A DNA stretch of 64,000 nucleotides, taken from NCBI RefSeq assembly GCF_004123295.1, contig NZ_SDMK01000004.1, positions 248,001 through 312,000 on the forward strand. The letters run 5' to 3'. The notes under the pieces were generated by a model that had not been told where the DNA came from, did not search any database, and worked only from the letters and a program-made list of their open reading frames with translations. Position 1 is the stretch's first letter; each line of letters starts with the position of its first letter. The DNA is from Silvibacterium dinghuense (GTDB taxonomy: Bacteria > Acidobacteriota > Terriglobia > Terriglobales > Acidobacteriaceae). This document shows positions 1-45,679 of this stretch, one piece after another. The position numbers and the translations under genes were made by a program.

Positions 1-64
1 CGAGCGCTATACCCGCGGCGGCCATGACCGGCACGCCCATGCGCGCATCAGACACGCCAGCTAG
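1..64 (+). CDS. Possible 3' end of a gene cut by the window edge
   Basis: An open frame enters from the left edge and stops at TAG 62-64. Only about 20 residues are visible, rich in Arg and His, and no family is recognisable. The reason to suspect a gene end is context: the CTAG that begins the repeat at 61 has the same position as the CTAG stop codons of the genes ending at 18344 and 19794, where the same repeat starts. A minus-strand gene starting near 40 or 55 and running off the edge (hydrophobic start MGVPVMAAAGIAL) is an equally open alternative. Confidence 0.2.
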   Translation, partial: ERYTRGGHDRHAHARIRHAS

Positions 65-1021
65 GGCGTATCCACCTATAGAGGCATCAGAAATAAAAAA
101 CTTACCCCCGCATTGTCATCCCGACCGGAGCGCAGCGAAGTGGAGGGACCTGCGGTTCTCTCTCTACACAGGCACGAAAAAGGATGCCCCATCCAAGCTC
201 CGCTTGGGTGGGAAGCATGACGCCTTGCGAACGGGACAGGAAGTATGCTGCTTTACTTTCTTGAGCGGCAGGCTTCGTCCCTGCAAGCTTTTCTCAGTTG
301 CTTAATCTTCAGACGAAGCGTTTTATCCCTGGCCGGTCCGGTTAGATTCAAAGGCGGTTTCTTGCACTCCAGAAGCTGTTTTTCTATGTGCTCGATTTCC
401 TGCCTGCTGCCGTCGATAGGATAGTGACTTACGAACAGATTCTTATACATCCACTGCGTGAGCTTGATCTCCTCATGGTCAGGGAATCGATAGTTCGTGC
501 AGGCGTGGCGATCTGTTTGCGGCCCTCTCGGTATCGCATGTAAGGAGAGCTCTTCCTGCAATAGCGCTCCAAGGGTTCTGCGCGGAGACGAGGTCCCGCT
601 GTGCTCAGCGGTGAAATGATTGCGCCGGCCAGCGGCATCCGCAGTCATGCCTATGTAAAGGAGACCTTGTTCGGTTGGTATAGAGATACTTCCTTGTCCT
701 GCCTGCACGGTCAGTACATCTCGCGTCACAAGGAAGACCGCATAGATGCCCGGTGGAACTTCGTTTAGCTGAACTGGATCGAGGCGTTTCAAAGCAAGCG
801 CTTCATATATTTCTTCATATTGCATCGCGGATTCTCCGGGACTAGTTTGGCGTCCTCGGTAGTGCAATGCTTTTCTTCTTTCGTGCGAAGACCTGGCCAT
901 AGAAAGCTCGTTCCTCCCACCCTTTTGTGCCTGTGTAGAGAGAACCGCAGGTCCCTCCACTCCGCTGTGCTCCGGTCGGGATGACAGGTCTCTGCTTGAG
1001 CTATAGGTGGATACACCCTGG
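61..1021. mobile_element. TIR-bounded element carrying a GIY-YIG gene
   Basis: The ends at 61-81 and 1001-1021 are inverted repeats matching at 19 of 21 positions; the inner 14 bases (GTATCCACCTATAG at 68-81, its complement at 1001-1014) are perfect. Inside them lie inverted copies of module A extended by a shared tail (114-176 and 927-986), and between those the GIY-YIG coding part (253-825). The left end also carries a module D hairpin near 187-216. The right end lies inside the minus-strand reading frame of the MarR-acetyltransferase gene. I see no transposase. Calling the unit mobile is inference from structure. Confidence 0.6.
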
Positions 1022-17951: not shown

Positions 17952-18344
17952 ATGTCAGCTACTTCTTCGCTGCCCGGATGGCTCGCCCGCGCCATCGGTG
18001 CGCTGCAGGATGGGAATATCGGCGGCTGGATGGAAATCTACACGCCCGACGCTATCCACGAGTTTCCGTTCGCTCCCACAAACGCGCTACGCCGCCTTGA
18101 AGGACGGGACGACATCGCGGCCTATATGAGCCAGATTCCGGCCCGCATCCGCTTCGGCTCGCTCAGCGATATCCGTGTGCGCGAAGCCGGCGACGAGCTC
18201 ATCGTCGAAGCCACTGGCCATCACCGGCGCGTCGCGGACGACACGCCAAGAGAAATCAGCTATGTCTGGTTCATAACCTTGCGCGACGGCCGAGTGGCGC
18301 ACTTCCGCGACTACATGAATCCGTTGCAGCTCTCGACGCTCTAG
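17952..18344 (+). CDS. NTF2-like (SnoaL-type) protein
   Basis: 130 residues. The cone fold is suggested by the helical start (WLARAIGALQDGNIGGWMEIYTPDAIHEFPFAP), a central RLEGRDDIAAYM and C-terminal strands ending VAHFRDYMNP. Members are small-molecule isomerases, hydrolases or binders; this one cannot be assigned. Transcribed away from the TetR gene, it is probably the main target. GAGG precedes ATG by seven bases. The stop TAG lies in the CTAG that opens the next repeat. Confidence 0.8.
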   Translation: MSATSSLPGWLARAIGALQDGNIGGWMEIYTPDAIHEFPFAPTNALRRLEGRDDIAAYMSQIPARIRFGSLSDIRVREAGDELIVEATGHHRRVADDTPREISYVWFITLRDGRVAHFRDYMNPLQLSTL

Positions 18345-18630
18345 GTTGTATCCCCATAGAGATGGTCTGAAAAGAAAGAACGTACCCTTATCGTTGTCAT
18401 CCCGACCGGAGCGAACCGGGGTCCCCGGCGCGCCCGATGTTGGTGCGCTGGGGTGGGGAAGCGCAGTGGAGGGACCTGCGGTTTTGTTTAGCCCCGCAAC
18501 ACTCCAGCTCGCGACCAACGGGAGCGGAAGCCGAAGGCGAAACGCCCTGCGCGGAGCAGCCGCAGGACGATACAACTGTCCTGCTCCGGTCGAAATGACA
18601 GGTCCCTGCTTGAGCTATATGGGGATACGA
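18341..18630. mobile_element. MITE-like element with terminal inverted repeats
   Basis: It begins CTAGGTTGTATCCCCATAG at 18341 and ends with the complement of GTATCCCCATATAG at 18615-18628. Inside: the AAAGAACGTACCCTTATCG stretch, module A with a long middle (18395-18485), module H (18509-18560) and an inverted partial module A (18575-18606). No coding capacity. The opening CTAG contains the stop codon of the NTF2-like gene. Confidence 0.7.
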
Positions 18631-18711
18631 TCTGAGCCCTCTTCCATCGACGAGCAGAATCGCTGCCGCGAAGCACCTCAACGGCGACGCAAACAAAGCT
18701 AAGATTTCTAC

Positions 18712-19794
18712 ATGGGACAGAGGTTTTACGAAAGCCCTCTCCATCGCTCTCTTCGCTTTGCGGCACGCGCCGGGGCCACGCTGCCCGTGTTCATGGCTCC
18801 GATGTCCGGCGCGTCGCCGGTTTCGCTCGCCTCCGCGATCGCCAATGCGGGAGGCATGGGCGCATGCGGCGCGCTCCTGATGTCTCCCCAGGCGATCTCT
18901 TCCTGGGCAGACGAATTCCGGCAGCACAGCAGCGGTCCGTTCCAGATCAATCTCTGGGTGCCCGATCCGCCTCCGGTCCGCGATGCCGCAGCGGAAGAAC
19001 GTCAGCGCGCCTTTCTCGGCTCCTGGGGACCGGAAATTCCCGCGGACGCAGGCGATACGCCGTTGCAGGACTTCGAAGCACAGTGTCTTGCCCTGCTACA
19101 GGCAAAGCCTCGCGTCATCTCGTCGATCATGGGTCTCTTCCCGCCCTCCTTTGTCGACGAGATGAAGGCGCAGGGCATCCTCTGGTTTGCAACGGCGACC
19201 ACCGCGGCAGAAGCACGCGCAGCCGAAGCAGCAGGCGCGGACGTGATCGTTGCCCAGGGCGCGGAAGCCGGGGGCCATCGTGGCGCATTCCATGCCGCAA
19301 ACGCGGAAGCAGAAGCCGTAGGCCTCTTCGCATTACTGCCGCAGGTCTGCGACGCGGTGTCTCTTCCAGTCATTGCGACAGGAGGCATCTCGGATGGCCG
19401 GGGCATCGCAGCAGCTCTGGTCCTGGGCGCAAGCGCCGTCCAGATCGGCACAGGTTTTCTGCGCACACCCGAAGCCGGGATTCATCCCACCTATGCGGAC
19501 AGGCTGGAGAAGACAGAAGCGCATGACACGCGCCTCACCCGGGCCTTCTCAGGGCGTACCGGCAGAGCCGTCCGCACCCGCTATGTCGAAGAAGCGGCAG
19601 CCAGAGGACCAGCGCCGGCTCCATACCCCGTGCAGCGGGCTCTCACGCGCAGCATGCGGGACGAAGCCGCCGCCCAGAATGATCCGGAGCGTATGCAGAT
19701 GTGGGCCGGTCAGGCTACCTCTCTCGCCAGGCCGTTGCCCGCCGCCACTCTCCTGCAAACCTGGTGGGAAGACGCATTGACCTATCTCCGCTAG
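18712..19794 (+). CDS. Nitronate monooxygenase-like flavoprotein
   Basis: 360 residues, FMN TIM barrel of the 2-nitropropane dioxygenase family: PVFMAPMSGASPVSLASAIANAGGMG near the start, AQGAEAGGHRG at about 180-190 with the His seen in nitronate oxidases, LPVIATGGISDGRGIAAALVLGASAVQIGTGFL for phosphate binding. Class I nitronate monooxygenases oxidise toxic alkyl nitronates. The family also has enoyl reductases, so the substrate is not certain. Stop TAG lies in the CTAG of the following repeat. Confidence 0.85.
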   Translation: MGQRFYESPLHRSLRFAARAGATLPVFMAPMSGASPVSLASAIANAGGMGACGALLMSPQAISSWADEFRQHSSGPFQINLWVPDPPPVRDAAAEERQRAFLGSWGPEIPADAGDTPLQDFEAQCLALLQAKPRVISSIMGLFPPSFVDEMKAQGILWFATATTAAEARAAEAAGADVIVAQGAEAGGHRGAFHAANAEAEAVGLFALLPQVCDAVSLPVIATGGISDGRGIAAALVLGASAVQIGTGFLRTPEAGIHPTYADRLEKTEAHDTRLTRAFSGRTGRAVRTRYVEEAAARGPAPAPYPVQRALTRSMRDEAAAQNDPERMQMWAGQATSLARPLPAATLLQTWWEDALTYLR

Positions 19795-19925
19795 GACGTA
19801 TCCACATAGAGCCACGAGAAAGGGTTGTCATTTCGACCGGAGCAAACCGGGGCCCCCGCCGTTGGCACGATGGGATGGTGAAGCGCAGTGGAGGAACCTG
19901 CGGTTTTGTTTGCTCTCTCATCGAG
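19791..19925 (+). repeat. Left part of a MITE-like element
   Basis: Starts CTAGGACGTATCCACATAG at the NMO stop codon and includes module A with the long middle (19827-19908). No right inverted end is visible, so it is truncated. Confidence 0.65.
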
Positions 19926-28663: not shown

Positions 28664-28720
28664 TGTCATCCCGACCGAAGCAAACGAAGTGAGCGAAGTG
28701 GAGGGACCTGCGGTTTTCTC
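28664..28720 (+). repeat. Module A at the GIY-YIG stop codon
   Basis: Forward copy of module A with the GAAGTGAGC middle. Its last base is the first plus-strand base of the GIY-YIG stop codon. An inverted copy lies on the other side of that gene (29077-29132). Confidence 0.9.
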
Positions 28721-29016
28721 TAGTTTCTCCAGGCTTCGCTCAAATCCACCCAGCAAGGATTCATCTTCCGAATAAGCGCCAGCTTCTTTTCTCTTCGCCA
28801 ACGCTTAATCTGCTTCTCGCGCCCTATGGCATTGCGTACATCGCCAAAGCTCTCGAACCAAACGAGCCTCGTGCAGTGATATTCAGAGCTGAAGCCTTCG
28901 AGCAATCCATGCTGATGCTCATAAGTTCTTCTTTCGAGATTATTGGTAATTCCGCAATAGAGGACATGCGTCCGGCTCGCCATGAGGTAGACAAAGTAAT
29001 GCCGGTCCGATGCCAT
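28720..29016 (-). CDS. GIY-YIG nuclease family protein, single domain
   Basis: 98 residues: HYFVYLMASRTHVLYCGITN gives the GIY-YIG core (here FVY and YCG), followed by NNLERRTYEH with the catalytic-type Arg, then GFSSEYHCTRLVWFESFGDVRNAIGREKQIKRWRREKKLALI and a Trp-rich end. This is the UvrC-N-like small family (YhbQ/UPF0213 group), nucleases of unsettled role. The conserved Arg and the Glu in IGREKQIK are present. Start 29016 is the family start; a longer frame upstream is translated repeat. Inverted module A copies stand on both sides, as around the GIY-YIG domain at 253-825. Confidence 0.85.
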   Translation of the reverse strand: MASDRHYFVYLMASRTHVLYCGITNNLERRTYEHQHGLLEGFSSEYHCTRLVWFESFGDVRNAIGREKQIKRWRREKKLALIRKMNPCWVDLSEAWRN

Positions 29017-29076
29017 GCGCTCTTTTATCGGAGCGCATGCTGAAATGCCAGTTACGGCAGTGATGTAGACAAATGC

Positions 29077-29222
29077 GAAACCACAGGTCCCTCCACTGCG
29101 CTCGCCTTCGGCTTGCTTCGGTCGGGATGACAGAGTTACGGACAGAAACGAAATCAAAACCGAAAATGATCTGTCATCCCGACCGCAGCGAAGCGCAGTG
29201 GAGGGACCTGCGGTTTTCTTCT
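29077..29222. repeat. Module A, inverted then direct
   Basis: An inverted copy (29077-29132) and, 40 bases on, a direct copy (29172-29219). The first forms the right bracket of the GIY-YIG gene; the second belongs to the ddl upstream region. Confidence 0.9.
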
Positions 29223-45536: not shown

Positions 45537-45679
45537 CTAGGCCGTATCCCCATAGAGCGAGAGTAAAAGGCTGTCATCCCGACCGGAGCGAGCCAAAGGC
45601 GAGCGAAGCGGAGGGATGACAACGATAAGGGGACGTTCTTTCTTTTCAGGCCATCTCTCTCTATGGGGATACAACCTAG
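45537..45679. mobile_element. 143-bp MITE-like element with 21-bp TIRs
   Basis: Ends at 45537-45557 and 45659-45679 are inverted repeats, differing at one position; both begin with CTAG outward and include GTATCCCCATAGAG. Inside, module A (about 45573-45625) is followed by the inverted form of the stretch CTGAAAAGAAAGAACG. No coding capacity. The most intact short element of this family in the window. Confidence 0.8.

Follow-up and report, generated by a model that had tools for sequence, protein, structure and literature searches.

A GIY-YIG nuclease gene between REP-like arms in a MITE-like element of Silvibacterium dinghuense

Introduction

Does a nuclease whose gene lies between inverted copies of a dispersed repeat act on that repeat, or is it there by accident? 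The question is raised by a unit at positions 61-1021 of the stretch of DNA analysed here, which we call the window; it is 64,000 nucleotides long and covers positions 248001-312000 of contig NZ_SDMK01000004.1 in the genome of Silvibacterium dinghuense, of the family Acidobacteriaceae (5.1 Mb, 9 contigs, 99.93% complete). An earlier note, made from the letters of the window, had described terminal inverted repeats (TIRs) at both ends of this unit, inner inverted copies of a second repeat, module A, and a GIY-YIG coding region between them, and had proposed that a GIY-YIG protein may be the autonomous partner that spreads these short repeats.

Two kinds of known repeat bear on the question. Bacterial MITEs are short, non-coding and TIR-bounded, and have the potential to form long hairpins. 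REPs fall into GTAG and CGTC classes according to the available parts of a survey by Di Nocera, De Gregorio and Rocco (2013, PMC3733652), in which CGTC heads are often TGTC, stems begin with AT, the neisserial repeat dRS3 is CGTC-1, and the CGTC class is apparently without a dedicated transposase. The same parts of the survey report TIRYTs flanked by TIRs in Acidobacteria, and the word 'GIY' is absent from its main text (PMC3733652).

Results

Anatomy of the unit

The three parts described in the earlier note were all borne out. The TIRs match at 19 of 21 bases over 61-81 and 1001-1021, the inner 14 perfectly, and an inverted-repeat search recovered them as arms of 19 nt with 95% complementarity (63-81/1001-1019). 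The inner copies of module A at 114-168 and 932-986 are 55 nt long and 93% complementary, and the coding region between them is a GIY-YIG gene of the PF20815 family. This gene lies at the middle of the element, between the two REP-like arms, which flank it as an outward-facing pair at distances of 138 and 160 bp; the inverted repeat in its 400-bp flanks scores 53.5. By eye, the arms resemble those of three gene-less copies elsewhere in the genome (L017, L004 and L007), and the gene replaces the loop. In blastn comparisons, the interior of the unit beyond position 217 had no match to the other own-genome loci compared. The short repeat just before that point, of the GCCCCATCCAAGCTCCGCTTGGGTGGG type, has about a dozen more copies within the window.

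Table 1. Coordinates of the unit at 61-1021 and of related features in the window.
Feature	Position	Strand	Remarks
Left TIR	61..81	+	CTAGG..GTATCC..; element end, or CTAG/TA target at the tip
Left inner arm	114..179	+	module A (REP-like, TGTCATCCCGACCGGAGC...GGAGGGACCTGCGGTT) and tail
Third dispersed repeat	182..217	+	one copy between left arm and GIY-YIG gene; blastn, window and own-genome loci
GIY-YIG nuclease gene	253..825	-	190 aa, PF20815 GIY_YIG_2
Right inner arm	923..986	-	module A and tail; outward-facing, as left arm
Right TIR	1001..1021	-	
Non-coding element	18341..18635		same ends and inner arms as 61-1021
Single TIR-family end	19792..19811	+	adjoins module A copy
Module A copy	28664..28715	+	flanks second GIY-YIG gene
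Second GIY-YIG gene	28720..29016	-	98 aa, PF01541, type A; flanked by module A copies, inverted and facing outward
Module A copy	29079..29132	-	other side of second GIY-YIG gene
Non-coding element	45537..45679		same ends as 61-1021; one long hairpin fold, DNA z-score -5.05

The TIR family in the genome

The 14-bp core of the TIR occurs in 55 exact copies in the 5.1-Mb genome, compared with one for the reversed pattern, and the 20-bp form with up to three mismatches occurs in 139 copies, compared with seven. Across the 61 genomes searched, the core had a single match in each of two genomes other than the source, and none in eight congeners (two assemblies 99% complete, the others 72-90%). As a family of MITE-like elements, these repeats have so far been found in the source genome only.

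We examined 106 ends, comprising 100 of the 139 with up to three mismatches and six exact-core ends. Sixty of these ends form 30 convergent inverted pairs within 3 kb, where a rough estimate of the chance expectation is about 1.7 pairs. Twenty-nine of the 30 are short non-coding elements of 141-313 bp, many short TIR-bounded copies being what is expected of a MITE family, and the thirtieth is the 61-1021 unit, at 959 bp the only pair of gene size. The short elements share a common plan: a TIR, a unique stretch, an outward-facing module A arm, a loop, a second arm and a TIR. Two of them lie in the window; the earlier note had recognized that the same sequence closes both, and its end for the first, 18630, is here corrected to 18635. 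The other 46 ends were without a partner in the pair count, and 34 stretches around a part of them, of which one held no end, were searched at up to six mismatches; several yielded a short partner, but a long one that convinced was seen in none. Among the 106 ends examined, no autonomous parent with the same ends was seen.

A model in which the short copies are deletion remnants of the 61-1021 unit was rejected, as none of the own-genome loci compared contained a recognizable piece of the gene. Separately, a GGCTCAGGGCTC-like sequence was seen by eye beside one end in all four of a set of elements (L028, L032, L027 and L021), which suggests either that the unit is larger or that such sites are preferred for insertion.

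Element tips and insertion sites

CTA stands before 18 of 32 left ends and TAG after 17 of 32 right ends (one right end being counted in two rows), so that either the TIR begins with CTAG or CTAG sites are the target. These CTAG tips are palindromic, and the sole informative direct pair comes from one element with changed tips (L010), which is flanked on each side by a TG in the same orientation, the pattern that a target duplication would leave, in this one case. The genome had no match to PF13358 (DDE_3, IS630-type) at E 0.001, which speaks against an IS630 partner or an IS630-related MITE.

Joining the flanks of the 32 paired-element rows and comparing them with the own-genome DNA collected gave, among the matches listed, no empty site, and single flanks match other dispersed repeats. 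An orthologous empty site was sought through the GNAT gene next to the unit, which was recovered at E 1e-30 in only two of eight congeners, with 45-46% identity. In one of these (L051), visual inspection puts the stop of the GNAT gene some few codons short of the insertion point, with no clean empty site, and the element thus appears to have been placed at the 3' end of the GNAT gene.

The PF20815 nuclease

The only Pfam match of the 190-residue protein was PF20815 (67.5 bits, where 22.4 is the curated cut-off; E 1.6e-18), and an NCBIfam search gave no match. Tyr28, Tyr57, Gly59, Arg83, Glu148 and Asn160 are invariant across five aligned PF20815 sequences, and we take these residues to represent the GIY and YIG motifs, the catalytic tyrosine, arginine and glutamate, and a late asparagine. 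The protein did not match PF01541, and a profile comparison with that family aligned 31 columns at 65% probability, which places it outside the short PF01541 group to which nucleases of the Ssn kind would belong. PADLOC returned nothing for it, the best solved structure in a profile search had an E-value of 0.79, and a predicted structure had a mean pLDDT of 51.

A GGAGAA sequence lies shortly upstream of the ATG as a candidate ribosome site. The gene also forms part of a single open frame of 608 codons on the minus strand, from 2079 to 253, in which an upstream MarR/GNAT-type gene continues in frame through the element into the GIY-YIG gene, and read-through or a fusion of the two is therefore possible. 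A promoter scan of 1-1100 found none, and an Rfam search of 1-30000 found one tRNA.

At 51.5% GC, compared with 62.9% for the window, the gene has the low GC that an acquired gene might show. It is the only PF20815 copy in the genome (a second match, E 0.4, is noise) and was not found in the eight congeners searched. A relative with 44% identity occurs in one of 60 related genomes (G014, of the same family as the host), which was also the one relative found among genome contigs; viral contigs held no confirmed relative. More broadly, PF20815 was present in three of 396 genomes of the phylum, the source genome included, in nine of 72,556 plasmid records and in no phage record. On an Ancylobacter polymorphus plasmid (L082), the PF20815 gene has an N-6 DNA methylase gene on one side and a tyrosine recombinase gene on the other, a context that resembles a restriction system, and on another plasmid genes for a relaxase and MobC are close to it. 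Of the 11 PF20815 relatives elsewhere, five were examined, two of them close kin, and these had no REP motif within 1 kb; the best inverted repeats of their 400-bp flanks scored 9-11, far below the value for the gene studied here.

Module A and type-A PF01541 genes

Module A is dispersed in its own right and also occurs outside TIR elements, for example at 28664-29132. Its 16-bp end has 113 copies in the genome with at most one mismatch, and a control had none. Module A carries the CGTC/TGTC head followed by AT of CGTC-tagged REPs (TGTCATCCCGACC); the stem of 8-9 bp with a loop of 4-5 nt that marks this class was not intact in the four single copies folded, which did no better than shuffles.

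The second GIY-YIG gene of the window encodes a short protein of another family, PF01541, and we call genes of its group type A. All three type-A genes of the source genome lie between outward inverted module A copies and do so without a TIR; in the 3.2-kb locus around 28720-29016, a search with up to five mismatches found none. Is this arrangement general? We collected PF01541 matches from 61 genomes, fetched their surroundings and scored the proteins by phmmer against one source-genome protein. The line for type A was drawn at 50 bits after a gap between 59.6 and 23.0 bits had been seen, and it replaced a grouping by regular expression; short-frame matches at contig ends (G004:C11:153-374 and G005:C354:64-285) were left out, and only some of the UvrC-length matches were taken as controls. 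The REP probe was the 10-mer GTCATYBYGA.

First, an outward REP pair was present within 250 bp on both sides at 27 of 49 type-A loci (from 27 genomes, the three of the source included) and at 6 of 426 positions shifted by 600-1000 bp. Genomes with at least one such locus number 17 of the 27, being the source and 16 related genomes. Second, 44 of the 49 type-A loci had some copy of the 10-mer, compared with 106 of the 426 shifted positions. Third, among other PF01541 loci, ten of them with UvrC-length frames, neither an outward pair nor any copy was found (0/24 in each case, one further locus, L145, having too short a flank for the 250-bp count). Inward pairs occurred at 9 of 49 type-A loci and at 9 of 426 shifted controls. 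The outward pair was absent from 22 of the 49 loci; five loci were without the 10-mer altogether, and four of these (L072, L141, L146 and L148, the exception being L136) have inverted repeats that score at least 20, where control means are 9-15. In one genome (G035, locus L124) with eight PF01541 matches, two type-A genes stand in tandem 621 bp apart, as if a REP-nuclease unit had been duplicated.

The gene at 253-825 has the same outward pair as the type-A genes, so that four GIY-YIG genes from two protein families follow one plan in this genome. It occupies the slot used, here and in 16 related genomes, by REP-linked nucleases of another GIY-YIG family.

The number of REPs tells a different story from their position. 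At least one exact REP 17-mer was found in 25 of 27 genomes with a type-A gene and in 15 of 34 without one, a comparison uncorrected for kinship. Within the host's family, the median number of REPs was 8 both with and without a type-A gene (p 0.21, likewise uncorrected), which counts against simple spreading by the nuclease, and REP-rich genomes without a type-A gene occur (for example G006, with 32 copies). For the earlier idea that a GIY-YIG protein spreads the short repeats, the part that stands is the company kept, as GIY-YIG genes do accompany module A in the source genome and its relatives.

Discussion

We give about even chances to the following reading: the 61-1021 unit is a copy of a MITE-like family that acquired a GIY_YIG_2 gene between its REP arms, possibly with a repeat-linked role for the nuclease. 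Because there is one gene-bearing copy, the word 'recruited' rests on a single case, and the acquisition could have been a plain passenger event. Also counting against this reading are the five PF20815 relatives without flanking repeats, the equal REP numbers with and without a type-A gene, the 22 type-A loci that lack the outward pair and the nine that have an inward one, and the four module A copies that fold no better than shuffles. A role of the nuclease on module A is possible, as is one on the TIRs, for which there is least support. Translated either through its own ribosome site or as a read-through product of the upstream GNAT gene, the nuclease might recognize the flanking repeat when this is single-stranded during replication, repair or DNA uptake, and would cut it at a fixed position. 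Among the many copies, repair and recombination might then keep and copy the REP pairs together with the gene between them, in parallel to RAYT nucleases, which are thought to act likewise on GTAG REPs. The TIRs, on the other hand, would point to separate, transposase-driven movement by an enzyme that was not found in the search with PF13358 and may be lost or act in trans.

Several known systems resemble parts of this picture. Compared with CGTC-tagged REPs as the available parts of the survey present them, module A likewise consists of short dispersed units with a CGTC/TGTC head and AT, and inverted dimers predominate and are unevenly spread between species, as here; unlike them, module A is longer, its 8-9 bp stem was not intact in the four copies folded, and GIY-YIG genes sit between the repeats (PMC3733652). 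Like RAYTs with GTAG REPs and the TIRYT 'TIRtrons' of those parts of the survey, the unit has a nuclease gene flanked by an inverted dispersed repeat, but RAYTs and TIRYTs are HUH tyrosine transposases, and the flanked protein here is a GIY-YIG nuclease, so that the unit is not a REPtron (PMC3733652). In its confinement to one genome among those searched and in the CTAG at many tips, the family is MITE-like; it differs from MITEs in that its arms belong to an independent REP-like repeat, that one copy has a nuclease gene and that a search with PF13358 found no parent transposase.

Ssn GIY-YIG nucleases, described in about 2025, reportedly cut single-stranded copies of a dispersed neisserial repeat in a site-specific manner. 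They are reported to be small members of the GIY-YIG superfamily whose target is a repeat dispersed in the genome, and the type-A genes look alike; we take these genes to be probably of the Ssn kind, and the type-A/REP pairing probably overlaps the work on Ssn nucleases. The 253-825 protein differs from them in belonging to PF20815, in its 190 residues and in its place within a TIR element. By title, nothing among the literature matches listed concerned GIY-YIG proteins paired with bacterial REPs, nor did the available parts of three further articles (PMC5082802, PMC12306157 and PMC10745880).

Other explanations have to be weighed against ours. The one that survives best, and to which we give somewhat less than even chances, is that the TIR elements form an ordinary MITE family whose transposase, either a DDE enzyme with a TA or CTAG target or a tyrosine enzyme of the TIRYT kind, is lost or unlinked, and that the GIY-YIG gene is tied to module A alone. 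Such an explanation is compatible with our preferred reading. It would account for the CTA and TAG at the element tips and for the direct TG/TG of L010, and TIR-flanked TIRYTs are on record in Acidobacteria in the available parts of the survey (PMC3733652); the lack of any PF13358 match in the genome speaks against it, informative tips are few, and the flank comparisons yielded no empty site.

A second explanation, which we regard as doubtful, is that a MITE and module A landed beside, or captured, an unrelated horizontally acquired GIY_YIG_2 gene that is a plain passenger, for example an orphan restriction-type nuclease with no link to the repeats. Such a history is consistent with the rarity and scatter of PF20815 across the phylum and plasmids, with the methylase and integrase beside the Ancylobacter gene, with the five relatives that have no flanking repeats, and with the single low-GC copy in this genome. 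It would leave to coincidence that the gene agrees in both kind and place with three type-A GIY-YIG genes between the same repeat and that it stands at the middle of the element, between two REP arms.

A bolder extension of our reading seems improbable to us: that two distant GIY-YIG branches, short PF01541 proteins and the larger PF20815 protein, are independently resident enzymes of CGTC/TGTC-type REPs, the second being packed into a TIR element in this species, and that the repeats form a nuclease-driven family which would spread by single-strand cutting and repair copying, without a transposase.

Finally, the proposal of the earlier note, taken to mean that the GIY_YIG_2 protein autonomously mobilises the TIR elements and that copies without the gene are non-autonomous forms derived from it, is unlikely: the TIR core and the gene do occur together only in the source genome among nine genomes of the genus searched, 61-1021 is the one gene-sized pair, and neither a PF13358 match nor, in the 34 stretches searched, a convincing larger partner turned up, but the gene-bearing unit is single, the other 29 pairs are too short for a gene and no part of this gene was found in the short copies compared, five relatives are without the repeats, TIRs with a CTAG tip look transposase-type, and GIY-YIG enzymes are not known to join DNA ends.

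The strongest result, that type-A GIY-YIG genes and REP-like repeats go together in acidobacteria, lies beside the 61-1021 element rather than in it. The available parts of the 2013 survey left open which enzyme, if any, accompanies the CGTC-tagged class (PMC3733652), and type-A GIY-YIG proteins are a candidate enzyme class for these repeats, a pairing that may in part be covered by the Ssn work already. In the 61-1021 unit, another GIY-YIG family takes that slot within an element that looks mobile, and the unit provides a natural experiment on whether it is the nuclease or a transposase that moves the repeats.
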